Virus record (IMG/VR): IMGVR_UViG_3300028557_000194
Span: 1-23,437 of that record
Length of the DNA stretch: 23,437 nucleotides
Direction: 5' to 3' (one strand)
DNA from: a virus
Shown here piece after piece: positions 14,945 through 21,052 of this stretch (its first letter is position 1; each line of letters starts with the position of its first letter). The notes under the pieces are model-generated. The model ran no database searches, was not told the DNA's origin, and saw nothing but the letters and a program-made list of their open reading frames with translations. The translations under genes and the position numbers were made by a program.

Positions 14945-17900
14945 CTAAAAGGCGCGTGATTTCGCTTGTTTCAAGATGTCGAGCAGGCGTGTCTCATCTC
15001 TGGCATCGATCGTGGCCGACACACTGCGGTTTCCCGCTGCCAATTCAACACGCACGGTGCGCACTGGGGTGGTTTCTCCTGCAAATGCAGATCTCGGCAC
15101 AGCCAGTGGCGAGGCCAAAGACTGAACCAATCCCCCACTGGCAAAACCTTGGATCTGGCCCTGCACACCACGAGCCAGCGCCTGGGCAGGAATTGACAGG
15201 TTGTTGAGTGACTCAAAAAATCCAGCCCCGAATTTGGACACGGCCGACCGATTGACCACGTACTCACCCGGCGTCAACATCGCCGGAACCGTGTCGGACT
15301 TGGCCACACCCCCACCCCGGTAAAACTCCCCTTGGTGCTGCTCCATGTAGTCCAGCAGTTCACGCTCGATGTCTTTGCCGTACACCAGCGGCTGCGCCAT
15401 GGCGGTACGCCAGGTCTGTTTGATGGCGTCGATCTTCTGCTTCTCGTTGGCTGTGAGCTGGGCGCGATTGGGAATGGACTCCAGCGTTTGGCGATCCGTG
15501 GCGGCGAGCTTGCCGTAGCCTTGCATGGTGTCCCACTCCATGCCAATGGACAGGGCCGCCCCGTAGTGCTGGCGCATCCAAAAGGTGTACTCGCGCATGG
15601 CCTCCAGGCCCAGGTCGATCATCTTTTTTGCTTCAGCAGCATCGCGGTTGTATTTGATGGGTGCGGGCCCGGTCGGCGTGACCTTGCCGCCAGTGGCAAA
15701 ACGTGAGACTCCATTGGCCAGCTTGGACAGGACACCGCCACCGTACTTGCGCACCGCTGCCTTGCGCAAAACGAATGCACCTGCATCGAGCGTGCGCGGC
15801 ACTGTGTCCTGATCACCAGAACCCGGTACGGAGCCACCGGCCATACGGGCAAATGCAGCACCAACCGGCGAGGCAACTGATCCACGAGAACCGGAAGCGT
15901 CGGCATAGCCGCCGCGTGCAAAGTGCGGCACACCTGCGCCCACCAGTCCGCCCGTTGCATTGGCTTCGACTTTGCGCACATAAATGGTGTGCGTGCTCGA
16001 TGTGTTCATGCCATTGAGGCTGGAGATTTCTGAGCGCGCCGCATTGGCATTGGTGTTGACACTGTGCTGCGACTCGGTGCGAATGCGGCTCAATGCGTTG
16101 ATCATGCCCTCGACGTTGGTGATGGATGCCTGGGCCTTTTCTGTGGTGACCTGGAGTTCGATCAGCGAGTTTTGCTTGGCATAGGCGGTCAGTTTGTCCA
16201 GCGCCGCTTTGGCCTGGGTGACATCGGCATCCACTGGCAGCGTTTTGCCCTCTTTGAGCAAGGCTTCATATTCCTGGAGCTTTTTCTGGGCCTGTTCCAA
16301 GTCGGCTTTGATGAGGAGCAGCATTTCTTTCTCGGCCATTGCCTTGTCCAGATCAGCGATGGCTTTGTCAAACCGGCTGGTGTCCGCGTCCAGCGTAACT
16401 TTTAAGCCAACTTTGAGCTTGGCGGTGATCTGGTCGATTTGGGTTTCTGTGTCCGTGAGGGTTTGCTTGATCTGGTCACGCGCACTCAACGCCGACTTGG
16501 CTGCGTTTTGGTGGGCCAGTGCCTGTGCATCAAGCGTCTTGACCAGGATTTCTTCGGAGCTGCGGATATCACCGATGGCCGTGTTGATGCCCTGCTTGCC
16601 CTGGGTGATGGCTGCATCGGCCGTGGTCGTTTTTTGAGCGAGTTCTGCGCGCAGAGTGTCGGCTTGGCGCATCAGATCCGTGGCTTTGTCGTGCTCGCCC
16701 TGGCGTGAGGCCTGCCGGGCTTGCGACTCCAGCGCCACTACTTGCGAGTAAGCGCCTTCAGACGTCTTCTTGGCTTCTTCGGCCTTTTTGGCCTCGGCCG
16801 TCTGGGTGCTGCCCACTTGCACTGCTAAATCCATGGCCTTTTGCGCAAACTGCTTGGCTTGCTCAAATTCACCTGCGGCCAGCGCATCGCGCGCCTTGGT
16901 CTGCAACTCAACGACCTGGCGTTTACGGTCTTCCGTCGCTTCAAACTCCGTCATGCCTTGACGGCGCAGTTCACGGATTTTTTCTTCCGTGGTCATCGTC
17001 AGCATGCGCTTGGCTTCTTCGATGCGCTGAATTTCCGCCAGATGCCGATTGGCCTCAGCGTTTAATGCATCGATGTGGGCGCGGTATTCCGTGGCAGCAA
17101 TGACCATGGACTGGCGTTTGGTCGCCAGAATCTCGCTTTCGACCCGAGTCACGTTGGCGCTGCGCTCGGCCTCAGTTGCGCCTTGCTTGGCCGCTGCTGC
17201 GACCCTGGCAGTGGACTCGTCATCGATGAGTTTCAGGGTGTCGGTCGTGGCCTTTTGCCGCAGGGTGGTCTGCTGGGTCAGTGCATCGGTAAGCAGCAGG
17301 GTTGATTTGGCGATCTGGGTTGCCTGCGAAGCTGAAGACAGTTCGAGCGCAGTTTGCTCCTGCTGGTAGCGTGCTTTCACAGCATCAACCTGTTTTTGCA
17401 GGTTGGCTTCGACCATGGCAGTCAGGCCCTTGTACGCCTCAGCCATCTTGGCAGTGGCATCCGTGACCACGCCATTGGCCTTGGTGACCGCCTGTTCCAC
17501 CTCGCCCAACCGGGATTTCAGCTTTTCCACGGCGGAGTGCACCGCTTCAACGCCACGACCGACCGCTTCTTGCGTACCTTGGCGCACAGCTTCCAGCTTT
17601 TTGGCAATCTCCTCCGCTGTGGTGGCCACCGTGGTCATGGCTGTTTTGGCGGCCTCAGACCCCTTGGTGGCATCGGCATACATTTGGGCAAAGATCACAT
17701 TCATTTCAGCCAGACGAGCCTCGTGGCGCTTGGTAGCTGCATCGATGGTGTCACTGGTAAAGATCGCTGCAAAGGCTTCCCAACGGTACTGCAACTGCTC
17801 GATCCCCTTGACCAGAATTTCCACCATGAAGATGCCAGCCTTGCGCACGATCTCGAATTTTTCGGACAACCAGGTGCCGATTTCCCAGCCGACTGCGAAC

Positions 17901-19000
17901 GCACCCAGCACAGCGAAGGCTGTTTTGAGCAGGCCGACGCTGGCAATGGCCGCTGTGACCGACAAATTGGCGGTGGCCCAGGCCGCAGAGGTGGCGGTTG
18001 CCGCCGTAATGGCTGCGGCCCCTGCGGTCTGCCAAGCCGTGACCAACGCTGGCAGCAGCCGGTAAATGAGCACCGCCAACCCCAATTCGGCAATTTTTTT
18101 GAGCCACTGCATGACCGTATCCAGATTGGTGGCCAGCCAGGTCAGGCCATCGGCGAGCTTTTTGGTGATGCCGGTAGCAGCATCGACCTGCGCGACCCAT
18201 TGCCCGAAGGCGTTTTGCAGGCGCTGAAATGCCTGACTGACCGTTGCGGGCAATTGAGAGTATTCGGCAGCAAGCTTGTCCTTTTGGCTCATCAAGGCAT
18301 TGACCACCACGTCCGCAGTGAGCCTGCCTTCTTCAGCCAACTTGCGCAGGCGACCAATCGGCACGTTCAAGCCGTCGGCCAGCGCTTGGGCCAGACGCGG
18401 TGAGTTTTCCACAACGGAGTTGAATTCTTCACCGCGCAGCACACCGGAAGCCAAGGCTTGTCCGAACTGCAACAGCGACGACTGGGCTTCCGTGGCCGAC
18501 GCACCCGACAGACGCAAGGCCTGCGAGATGCTCTCGGTAATAGAAAGTGCGTCCTTCTGTTCACCACCCAGCATTCGCACCGCTTGCTGCAACTTGCCGT
18601 ACAGGGTCGAGACTTCCTGGATGGGCACCCCAATGCGCTGAGCGATATCAAACAGGGCTTTTTGCGCAGTGACAAATTCATTCTGTCCGGCTGTTGCCAG
18701 CTTCAGGCGCGCGCCCATCATGTTCCAGGCATCGGCCACCTGGACAATCTCCTGCACTTTGCCTGCCGCCCAGTTGATCGACAGAAATGCCAGCAACTGC
18801 GTCTTGGCAGTGGCCACCTGGTCGCCAAACGCCGACATGCCTGCTTTGACCTCGGCCATACCGCGCGCGGCCTTGTCGCCAGCGGTCTTGGCTGTCGATG
18901 CCAACTCGCCCAGGCTCTGCTGGGCGGAATTCAGGGCGCGTTTGAGCCCGTCATCGGCACCTTCAAGGGCTACTAAAACGGCGATACGGTTGTTGGCCAT
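14945..19000 (-). CDS. Tail tape measure protein
   Basis: 1351 residues. The N-terminal ~300 residues show the tape_meas_nterm pattern (WAAGKVQEIVQVADAWNMMG, LYGKLQQAVRMLGG, QSSLLQFGQALASGVLRGEE, VNALMSQKDKLAAEYSQLP). A hydrophobic stretch at about 303-395 may enter the host membrane during DNA delivery. A long Ala/Gln/Lys/Glu-rich coiled-coil region runs to about 1000. The C-terminal part has two copies of a G-D-x-D-T-V-P-x-x-L-x-x-G-x-x-V module (about 1055-1097 and 1226-1268). Tape measure proteins set tail length; scaled from lambda gpH (853 residues, ~150 nm tail), this one predicts a tail near 200 nm or longer. ATG 19000 has a weak Shine-Dalgarno sequence. The absence of sheath genes nearby supports a siphovirus morphology. 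Confidence 0.95.
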   Translation of the reverse strand: MANNRIAVLVALEGADDGLKRALNSAQQSLGELASTAKTAGDKAARGMAEVKAGMSAFGDQVATAKTQLLAFLSINWAAGKVQEIVQVADAWNMMGARLKLATAGQNEFVTAQKALFDIAQRIGVPIQEVSTLYGKLQQAVRMLGGEQKDALSITESISQALRLSGASATEAQSSLLQFGQALASGVLRGEEFNSVVENSPRLAQALADGLNVPIGRLRKLAEEGRLTADVVVNALMSQKDKLAAEYSQLPATVSQAFQRLQNAFGQWVAQVDAATGITKKLADGLTWLATNLDTVMQWLKKIAELGLAVLIYRLLPALVTAWQTAGAAAITAATATSAAWATANLSVTAAIASVGLLKTAFAVLGAFAVGWEIGTWLSEKFEIVRKAGIFMVEILVKGIEQLQYRWEAFAAIFTSDTIDAATKRHEARLAEMNVIFAQMYADATKGSEAAKTAMTTVATTAEEIAKKLEAVRQGTQEAVGRGVEAVHSAVEKLKSRLGEVEQAVTKANGVVTDATAKMAEAYKGLTAMVEANLQKQVDAVKARYQQEQTALELSSASQATQIAKSTLLLTDALTQQTTLRQKATTDTLKLIDDESTARVAAAAKQGATEAERSANVTRVESEILATKRQSMVIAATEYRAHIDALNAEANRHLAEIQRIEEAKRMLTMTTEEKIRELRRQGMTEFEATEDRKRQVVELQTKARDALAAGEFEQAKQFAQKAMDLAVQVGSTQTAEAKKAEEAKKTSEGAYSQVVALESQARQASRQGEHDKATDLMRQADTLRAELAQKTTTADAAITQGKQGINTAIGDIRSSEEILVKTLDAQALAHQNAAKSALSARDQIKQTLTDTETQIDQITAKLKVGLKVTLDADTSRFDKAIADLDKAMAEKEMLLLIKADLEQAQKKLQEYEALLKEGKTLPVDADVTQAKAALDKLTAYAKQNSLIELQVTTEKAQASITNVEGMINALSRIRTESQHSVNTNANAARSEISSLNGMNTSSTHTIYVRKVEANATGGLVGAGVPHFARGGYADASGSRGSVASPVGAAFARMAGGSVPGSGDQDTVPRTLDAGAFVLRKAAVRKYGGGVLSKLANGVSRFATGGKVTPTGPAPIKYNRDAAEAKKMIDLGLEAMREYTFWMRQHYGAALSIGMEWDTMQGYGKLAATDRQTLESIPNRAQLTANEKQKIDAIKQTWRTAMAQPLVYGKDIERELLDYMEQHQGEFYRGGGVAKSDTVPAMLTPGEYVVNRSAVSKFGAGFFESLNNLSIPAQALARGVQGQIQGFASGGLVQSLASPLAVPRSAFAGETTPVRTVRVELAAGNRSVSATIDARDETRLLDILKQAKSRAF

Positions 19001-19034: not shown

Positions 19035-19679
19035 TTATCCGACCGTGCGGATTTGTTGTTCGATGCTTGCTGCCAATCGTGGGATGCGCCGCACCACCAG
19101 TCGCTCGATATCGAGTCGCTTTTTGAGCATGACGCGGGGAACGAGCACCGCAATCGGAATATCAGCACCACGCTTCAAACGTTTGATGCCTTGCGCTTTG
19201 CGGTACCGACGTTTGAATCCAGCCAAGGGGCGGTCATGCTCTTTGATGTTCTCGGCCATCAGCACCACGTTGCCCTTGGCGTTTTTGATGAAGTAGGCGT
19301 TGCCGCCCCGCATCAGTTCAGCGATCTGTGCCTTGAAGCGCTTGCGGCCAACCCGGCCGTGCAAGGGAATCAGCATCTTGGCCGAAATGGTCCCGCCTTT
19401 TTCGTGCATGCCAACCCATGGAATGCGCGAGCCCACGTACAGCGCTGGCAAGCGACTGGGGTCTTTGTCGATCACGTAGGCGGAGAACCCCTTGAGGAAG
19501 GTCTTTTTGACCACCGTCAGTTGGCTGGCCACCTGATCGCGCACGTCTGTCTTGATTGCAATAGCCTCTTTCGCCATGGCTTTGGCCACCGCTTTTTTGA
19601 CCTTGTCGCGAAACTCCCCACCCCACCGGCGCAGTTGGGCTTGCGCCGCAGCGCTGTCGATTCGGATGGAGATTTTCAT
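19035..19679 (-). CDS. Minor tail protein Z-like / DUF6441-like tail completion protein
   Basis: 214 residues, strongly basic. It has an N-terminal strand MKISIRIDSAAAQAQL, then a helix with KKAVAKAMAKEAIAIKTDV, the pattern LYVGSRIPWVGMHEKGGTIS, LIPLHGRVG, AYFIKNAKGNVVLMAENIKE, and a C-terminal basic helix. The order helix, surface motif (H-E-K-G-G-x-I), then a beta pair fits minor tail protein Z/DUF6441-type proteins encoded just before the tape measure gene, which act in tail completion or tube assembly. The ATG overlaps, as ATGA, the stop of the downstream chaperone ORF. The family call is moderate. Confidence 0.72.
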   Translation of the reverse strand: MKISIRIDSAAAQAQLRRWGGEFRDKVKKAVAKAMAKEAIAIKTDVRDQVASQLTVVKKTFLKGFSAYVIDKDPSRLPALYVGSRIPWVGMHEKGGTISAKMLIPLHGRVGRKRFKAQIAELMRGGNAYFIKNAKGNVVLMAENIKEHDRPLAGFKRRYRKAQGIKRLKRGADIPIAVLVPRVMLKKRLDIERLVVRRIPRLAASIEQQIRTVG

Positions 19680-19873
19680 GACGAGGTTGATGCTGTGGTC
19701 AGACGTTCAAGCGTTTGATCGAGGTTTTTGGAGTCGCCCCTGCTACCAATGGCGATCAGGGTCAGGAGTTGGGCATCACGCGCGCTGTCCAAGCGAGCGC
19801 TGGCAGCAGCAAACCCTTTTAACTGCGCCAGCGTGTAGTCCAGGATGTCGGGCAGTCGGTGGCCGTGCTCCAT
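19676..19873 (-). CDS. Tail assembly chaperone, downstream (T-like) frame
   Basis: Read alone from ATG 19873 it encodes 65 residues (MEHGHRLPDILDYTLAQLKG...), but the same frame stays open back through 19966. The extra 31 codons give sensible protein ending QHWFDLTQRLMEHGHRLPDI, which matches the LxxxGHxLxDIxxYTLxQ pattern of tail chaperone extensions. It is therefore best understood as the C-terminal part of a frameshift fusion, like lambda gpGT. The ATG overlaps the upstream stop (TGATG), so independent coupled translation is also possible. Confidence 0.8.
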   Translation of the reverse strand: MEHGHRLPDILDYTLAQLKGFAAASARLDSARDAQLLTLIAIGSRGDSKNLDQTLERLTTASTSS

Positions 19874-20319
19874 CAGACGCTGGGTGAGGTCGAACCAGTG
19901 TTGGCTGCTTGAATTCCCTTGCCTAGACTGAACAGACCGTCGAGTTTGGGAATCACCGTTCGGGTAAAAAAATCAGCGTTGACCTCCATCACCTTGGCTG
20001 CCAGCAGCAACGCGTCGTCCGCTGCCAAGTCGTCCACCCACTCGCGCGGCTTTTTGACTGCGATGCCGATGGCGTTCAACAAATCGTCACCACGCTCGCC
20101 AAACAGCGCCAGCCAGTTGATTTGCGGCTGGCTCAACTGCGTCATAACTGGCGAGATCACCCGCAAAAATGCAGGCAGCTGGCCGACTTTGAGGGGTGAG
20201 ATCGCGATGATTTCACCTGCCACTTGCACCAGGGTGTCCTGGGGAATTAGTTTTTCCAAATCAGTTATGACGCGCCTTTCAGATTTGGACAATGCGGCCA
20301 AACTGGCCCAGCGTTGCAT
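19676..20319 (-). CDS. Tail assembly chaperone frameshift fusion (gpGT-type), -1 slip at U7
   Basis: Zero-frame reading reaches GAT TTT TTT (minus strand). The T7 run at 19972-19966 is set as T-TTT-TTT in that frame, the canonical X-XXY-YYZ layout. After a -1 slip the frame reads YPNGDSQTRR... and continues without a stop into the downstream chaperone domain, ending at TGA 19676. The fusion would be about 214 residues from ATG 20319, or 197 from the ATA at 20268. A possible stem (ATTCCC with GGGAAT) starts 12 bases after the slippery site. Tail chaperones made by frameshifting, at a fixed ratio to the short form, help assemble tail tube on the tape measure protein in lambda and many other phages. 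Confidence 0.75.
19873..20319 (-). CDS. Tail assembly chaperone, short (G-like) form
   Basis: Zero-frame product ending at TGA 19875-19873. The conserved-looking part begins DLEKLIPQDTLVQVAGEIIA, then SPLKVGQLPAFLRVISPVMT, a helical region DDLLNAIGIAVKKPREWVDD and ADDALLLAAKVMEVNADFF, the usual all-helical chaperone pattern. The start is uncertain. ATG 20319 has no Shine-Dalgarno sequence and overlaps the tail tube gene by 41 bases. In contrast GAAAGG lies 6 bases before an ATA codon at 20268 that would give (M)TDLEKLIP, the usual beginning of this family (131 residues). TTG 20259 is another option. It binds the tape measure protein and tail tube subunits before assembly and is absent from the virion. 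Confidence 0.82.
   Translation of the reverse strand: MQRWASLAALSKSERRVITDLEKLIPQDTLVQVAGEIIAISPLKVGQLPAFLRVISPVMTQLSQPQINWLALFGERGDDLLNAIGIAVKKPREWVDDLAADDALLLAAKVMEVNADFFTRTVIPKLDGLFSLGKGIQAANTGSTSPSV
19966..19972 (-). promoter_or_regulatory. Slippery heptamer for -1 ribosomal frameshifting
   Basis: A run of seven A on the plus strand gives UUUUUUU in the mRNA, phased D-F-F in the chaperone gene as U-UUU-UUU. Both frames are open around it, and the -1 frame leads into the T-like domain. Confidence 0.75.
20266..20280 (-). promoter_or_regulatory. Shine-Dalgarno GAAAGG followed by a candidate ATA start codon
   Basis: On the minus strand GAAAGG (20280-20275), a 6-base spacer, then ATA (20268-20266). 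The tail tube gene's TGA (20281-20279) overlaps the Shine-Dalgarno sequence, as in coupled genes. Starting here gives a 10-base intergenic gap instead of a 41-base overlap. Confidence 0.5.
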
Positions 20320-21052
20320 CGAACGGTTTGCTGGAATCAGCCAAGAGCGAGCCCTCCATTTCGAACTTGTTGTATTCGTTGGAGATGAACGAGATTTCCT
20401 TCAAGGGATCAAACGCCACCCGATATAACTCCACCAACACCTTTGCATTACCGTCGGCGGTGTTGATGCCCTCCAGCCGCAGGAAACGCTCTGGCAGTGC
20501 CTGCGTAAAGATGCCGATATCTGTCGTGACACCAAAGGCGTAGCTGGCTTTCAGGGGCGCGGCGTAGGGTACGGCAGGTGTGCCGCCATCATGGAGTCGC
20601 AGCAACTGGATCGCCCCAAAGTCAATGTCTGCCGTGTAGTCCACACCTTCGACCAACGTGGCCGGTGTGGCGCTGCTGTCCTCGATCACCAGGCTGGCCA
20701 CCTTGGGGTGTGCCAGGAAATAGCGCTCGCCGACCAGCGGTGACGCGCCCGCCAATGGCTCATTGGTCACAGTGCCGGGCGTGCCGACCACATAGTTGCC
20801 GTACAACGCCAGCGCAAGGTTTTCTTTGGTGAACTCTTCGATGGTCAGATTTACTGTGGCGGACTTTTGCTTGACCATGCGGTGATCGAGCGTGCGTTGA
20901 CCGGTTTGGCTCTCATAGTGCTCCAGCACGTCGGTTTTGAGAGAGAGTTTCAGCTCGGCCACATTGCCGGGTGAGCGAACTTCGATGGGGTTGCCTTCCA
21001 CGTCGCGTTTGCCGAGGTAAACACGGCCCTGGAATGATGCATAGGTACTCAT
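20279..21052 (-). CDS. Major tail tube protein
   Basis: 257 residues. N-terminal MSTYASFQGRVYLGKRDVEG and ELKLSLKTDVLEHYESQTGQ give the mixed beta start typical of long-tail tube subunits. Then come TVNLTIEEFTKENLALALYG (a hallmark stretch of tail tube proteins), an insertion with LVEGVDYTADIDFGAIQLL (about 135-155), and a C-terminal sheet ending EISFISNEYNKFEMEGSLLADS. It would polymerise as rings on the tape measure protein to build the tube. AAGGA precedes ATG 21052. Its position between terminator and chaperone fits lambda gene order (V before G). The EGVDYT loop resembles the repeated motif of the 1206-residue tail protein. Confidence 0.88.
   Translation of the reverse strand: MSTYASFQGRVYLGKRDVEGNPIEVRSPGNVAELKLSLKTDVLEHYESQTGQRTLDHRMVKQKSATVNLTIEEFTKENLALALYGNYVVGTPGTVTNEPLAGASPLVGERYFLAHPKVASLVIEDSSATPATLVEGVDYTADIDFGAIQLLRLHDGGTPAVPYAAPLKASYAFGVTTDIGIFTQALPERFLRLEGINTADGNAKVLVELYRVAFDPLKEISFISNEYNKFEMEGSLLADSSKPFDATLGQFGRIVQI

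Follow-up and report, generated by a model that had tools for sequence, protein, structure and literature searches.

The slip site that yields the tail assembly chaperones gpG and gpGT of phage lambda is G_GGA_AAG. In lambda tail assembly, gpG binds the tape measure protein, with the T part responsible for recruiting the major tail protein (PMC5009743). Slip sites formed by T runs have been described for the tail chaperone pairs of other phages. According to the account of these pairs in PMC3931495, the gpE/E+E' pair of P2 uses a −1 slip on T6G, and orf27/27.1 of Smp131 uses T7G, with T7C in its relatives. In the Pseudomonas Mu-like phage PaMx73, T_TTT_TTC was predicted near the end of the chaperone ORF (ORF35/36), 43 codons before the stop and in the −1 direction (PMC4378225). 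The chaperone gene described here, found in a virus record of 23,437 nucleotides (the window, analysed at its full length), is a well-supported but ordinary example of this T-run frameshift; what is new is its conservation across a whole family, the assignment of phrog_13355 and phrog_14432, and the demotion of a coupled start that had been proposed as a second route to the downstream domain.

The gene belongs to a head-tail module that resembles those of siphophages and is encoded on the minus strand, in the order head decoration, capsid protein E, head-tail attachment, tail terminator, major tail protein, chaperone, DUF6441 and tape measure. The chaperone thus lies between the phrog_807 and phrog_8010 genes, which is the gene order of a gpG/gpGT-type pair. 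The features considered are as follows.

20279..21052, minus strand: major tail protein, upstream neighbour of the chaperone (phrog_807, E 1.5e-76)
19873..20268, minus strand: gpG-like tail assembly chaperone, 0-frame product of ~131 aa from the conserved start position (phrog_1442, fold match)
19983..19987, minus strand: Shine-Dalgarno-like GGAGG, 10 nt 5' of the heptamer, candidate 5' stimulator (sequence, codon conservation)
19966..19972, minus strand: slippery heptamer U_UUU_UUU, candidate −1 tandem slippage site (in phase; conserved in 112 unique regions)
19676..19966, minus strand: −1 frame extension, a ~20-residue linker and a T-like helical domain, ending at TGA 19678-19676 (phrog_13355, phrog_14432, structure model)
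19871..19876, minus strand: CTGATG, in which the chaperone stop TGA lies within Leu-Met codons of the −1 frame and an apparent ATG of the second ORF follows (comparison with relatives)
19035..19679, minus strand: DUF6441 protein (PF20039, E 4.3e-79)
14945..19000, minus strand: tape measure protein, downstream (phrog_8010, E 0; PF20155, E 1e-63)

The DUF6441 gene, which also matches phrog_6367, lies between the chaperone and tape measure genes, and its ATG overlaps the stop of the −1 frame (ATGA).

A sequence-only reading of the window had proposed a −1 frameshift at the T7 run, and its description of the site was borne out: the run at 19972-19966 stands in the exact X_XXY_YYZ phase, as GAT TTT TTT ACC in the chaperone frame, and is the sole in-phase heptamer of its type within the chaperone ORF, 97 nt ahead of the 0-frame stop (TGA 19875-19873). 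In the −1 frame, a TGA stands directly 5' of the heptamer (GC TGA TTT TTT TAC). Past the heptamer this frame is open, as had been claimed; it stays so for 97 codons (stop included) down to 19678-19676, runs for 31 codons before the ORF starting at 19873, crosses the chaperone stop and continues through that second ORF. The contrast drawn with the lambda heptamer is also real, G_GGA_AAG there against U_UUU_UUN here, and the likeness to gpG/gpGT is not drawn from sequence homology to lambda G or T; yet U_UUU_UUN had already been described for phage tail genes (PMC3931495, PMC4378225). P2 and Smp131 share with the window gene a T-run −1 slip in a chaperone pair, as far as PMC3931495 describes it, but both are myophages, and the likeness drawn here is one of the slip site. 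PaMx73 is likewise compared by its site, with an overlap of 43 codons versus about 30 here.

The chaperone ORF matched phrog_1442, annotated as tail assembly chaperone, with an E value of 2.7e-29, as did 36 of 36 homologues. Its structure model, like that of the extension, was built from an alignment of the window and the collected loci with the row of the database phage (L033) left out; it had a mean pLDDT of 79 and in fold searches matched several viral models named 'tail assembly chaperones' as well as one from Xylella phage Sano named 'Pre-tape measure frameshift protein G'. Searching the PDB with the chaperone, by sequence or by fold, returned nothing significant (no fold match at E<=0.001), and tblastn with the chaperone against phage records gave no match. 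The reading frame is open upstream to an ATG at 20319, which had been taken as the start of the ORF. We correct this assignment, as that ATG falls inside the major tail protein gene, close to its 3' end; relatives share a start at the Met of MTDLEKL (minus strand, 20268-20266), where they have ATG with AAAGG upstream. In the window and two near-identical contigs (L002/L003), this conserved position reads ATA, and the chaperone may start here at ATA 20268-20266, at TTG 20259-20257 or at ATG 20319 within the major tail protein gene.

The −1 extension matched phrog_13355 (E 3.8e-21) and phrog_14432 (E 5e-6), and its model, with a mean pLDDT of 81, contained helices at residues 19-33, 38-42, 46-75 and 79-95. 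The conserved W codon of the T-like domain is at 19897. The predicted fusion would join 96 new residues to a shared part of 118 residues if ATG 20319 is the start, for a total of 214, or of about 101 if translation begins at the conserved position, for a total of about 197. Both phrogs carry the label 'unknown function', and the comparison allows a firm annotation for both: they are the T-like half, read in the −1 frame, of phrog_1442 chaperones. The model of phrog_14432 (191 positions) matched 28 of 30 −1 extensions, linker included. Because the T frame of GC-rich relatives is open further upstream, phrog_14432 may in part consist of gene calls in that frame that were extended too far. An alignment of nine T sequences proved too diverse for scanning.

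For the comparison, relatives were gathered from IMG/VR and genome contigs with the chaperone sequence and, with the heptamer ignored, with the downstream domain, using A3 in viral contigs and phrog_13355 in two genome sets centred on a Rhodoferax MAG, one an order and one a phylum. This gave 185 loci in addition to the window, and the domain was present in 180; most of those without it were truncated at the edge of a contig, and one was a weak match (L105). Removal of duplicates left 112 unique regions, which formed 45 clusters at 80% amino-acid identity. Exactly one in-phase TTTTTTN was found in 180/180 domain-bearing loci, 112/112 unique regions and 45/45 clusters, counts which are not independent because the sequences share ancestry. 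In all 180 loci the chaperone ORF overlaps the domain, which is always in the −1 frame, and a homologue that keeps separate ORFs and lacks a slippery run, as would have refuted the frameshift, was encountered in none of them. The heptamer-blind searches, both with phrog_13355 in genomes and with A3 in viral contigs, had the same outcome. The heptamer was TTTTTTT in 92 of the unique regions, TTTTTTC in 17 and TTTTTTG in 3, and TTTTTTC was retained in a relative of 42% identity and in the isolated Pseudomonas phage PotUPM1. Thus, the comparison of relatives strongly supports a programmed −1 frameshift at this site, and the gene is very probably a gpG/gpGT-type tail assembly chaperone gene that employs it.

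Constraint at the level of codons was in agreement with this. The first Phe codon was TTT in 45/45 cluster representatives, compared with 28/139 TTT and 111/139 TTC for Phe elsewhere in the same ORFs, and the Asp codon before the run was GAT in all 44 representatives that have Asp there. Relatives with DFL carry Leu as the second residue and encode it by TTG, which preserves the run, whereas TTG accounts for 96 of 756 Leu codons elsewhere. Conservation of synonymous sites around the heptamer had been suggested as a check, and in 2,478 pairwise comparisons the synonymous differences per site were 0.00 at GAT and the first TTT versus about 0.5-0.6 upstream, with 0.09 at the second heptamer codon and 0.07 at the upstream GAG codon. 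The codons between GAG and GAT vary freely (Val 0.53, Asn 0.93, Ala 0.46). Parts of the overlap downstream of the heptamer also evolve slowly, as expected of two coding frames. A fixed X base together with a variable Z fits the tandem slippage of two tRNA-Phe on U_UUU_UUU.

The sequence-only reading had allowed a second route, in which the T-like domain would be made as a separate protein by stop-start translational coupling at TGATG. The motif does exist in the window, but its ATG is a C-to-G one-base variant, private to the lineage of this contig, of a conserved Leu-Ile pair, CTG ATC: CTGATG was found in 1/112 unique regions, the window type, and CTGATC in 72/112. Since this Leu-Ile pair is conserved in the −1 frame, the chaperone stop is its by-product. 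Furthermore, the T frame lacks any ATG, GTG or TTG over the stretch that separates the slip from the chaperone stop in 97 of the 112 unique regions, which leaves the frameshift as the only evident way to the domain in most relatives. The product expected of such a start would also be damaged: the conserved domain begins at W, eight residues ahead of the ATG, which is residue 32, 13 residues past the start of predicted helix 19-33, so that initiation there loses most of that first helix. We therefore consider the coupled route very improbable; of that earlier proposal, the U7 frameshift stands by its conservation among relatives, and the TGATG coupling does not.

Slippage of RNA polymerase on the T run, which would add a base to part of the mRNA and let ordinary translation reach the −1 frame, draws its appeal from the run of seven T itself. 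It is judged highly unlikely because the run is short, T6C or T6G, in 17/112 and 3/112 unique regions, respectively; furthermore, the X base stays T (GAT 44/44) even with C or G as Z, as expected of tandem tRNA slippage and not of a constraint on run length. That the two frames merely represent a decayed gene or an assembly or sequencing indel in a homopolymer, a common site of sequencing error, is virtually impossible and refuted by the comparison, as the same frame relation recurs in 112 unique sequences, drawn from many metagenomes, from genomes and from one isolated phage, and the −1 frame encodes a conserved domain.

Returning to the frameshift, we looked at elements that might stimulate it, in comparison with those of dnaX. 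The spacing of −1 Shine-Dalgarno stimulators is 9-14 nt (PMC5009743), and GGAGG lies at 10 nt, within that range. The Glu codon in GGAGG was GAG in 35/36 representatives against a GAG share of 64% elsewhere (p about 2e-6, with no correction for shared ancestry). A nearby Lys codon outside the element was, however, also heavily biased (AAG 20/21), and a few relatives are missing the motif, so the element is only suggestive as a stimulator; GGAGG may help the −1 shift by pairing with 16S rRNA. On the 3' side, sliding folding z-scores in the 45 representatives had a mean of about 0 downstream of the slip, and RNAalifold on 65 aligned sequences found no consensus there; thus, neither excess stability nor a consensus structure corresponding to the 3' stem-loop of dnaX was detected by these two methods, which do not specifically cover pseudoknots. 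The lack of a conserved 3' stem-loop counts against the frameshift, as does the observation that U_UUU_UUU shifts more weakly than A_AAA_AAG in E. coli constructs (PMC5009743). We tentatively raise the possibility, for which the chances are somewhat below even, that this chaperone family combines U_UUU_UUN with an internal SD-like Glu-Val codon pair (GAGGU) at a fixed 10 nt upstream as the sole stimulator and with no 3' RNA structure, and that it represents a minimal SD-driven tail frameshift across diverse phages. The many natural U_UUU_UUN sites, with the SD-like codon and no 3' hairpin, offer a test case for the determinants of frameshift efficiency.

Under the presumed efficiency of the shift, most ribosomes would keep to the 0 frame until they terminate at TGA 19875-19873, giving the short chaperone, and a minority, with tRNA-Phe in the P and A sites on U_UUU_UUU, would slip back one base, probably aided by the pairing of 16S rRNA with GGAGG 10 nt upstream. 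The shifted ribosomes would then read a flexible linker and a four-helix T-like domain, resulting in the long fusion. By analogy with lambda, the tape measure protein would be bound by the part common to both products, and the major tail protein would be recruited by the T part, which is the rarer.

Gene-calling programs overlook the −1 product or place it wrongly, and PotUPM1 (OQ633420), the match obtained by tblastn with the T domain against phage records, is an example. This Pseudomonas phage has a homologous T domain of 38% identity, an in-phase T_TTT_TTC and a large ORF downstream in the position of the tape measure. Its T part (L033 6001-6210) is unannotated as such, and the proteins are named 'hypothetical'; the stretch, which falls between two annotated genes, is coding and holds the conserved −1 T domain. 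In another relative (L019, with duplicates L049 and L120), the chaperone ORF stops 12 codons sooner (GGAATTTAA), and the heptamer and the −1 domain are intact. The T domain also occurs two or three times per genome in several bacteria (G001, G046, G091, G153, G185 and G241), pointing to multiple related prophages in each genome.
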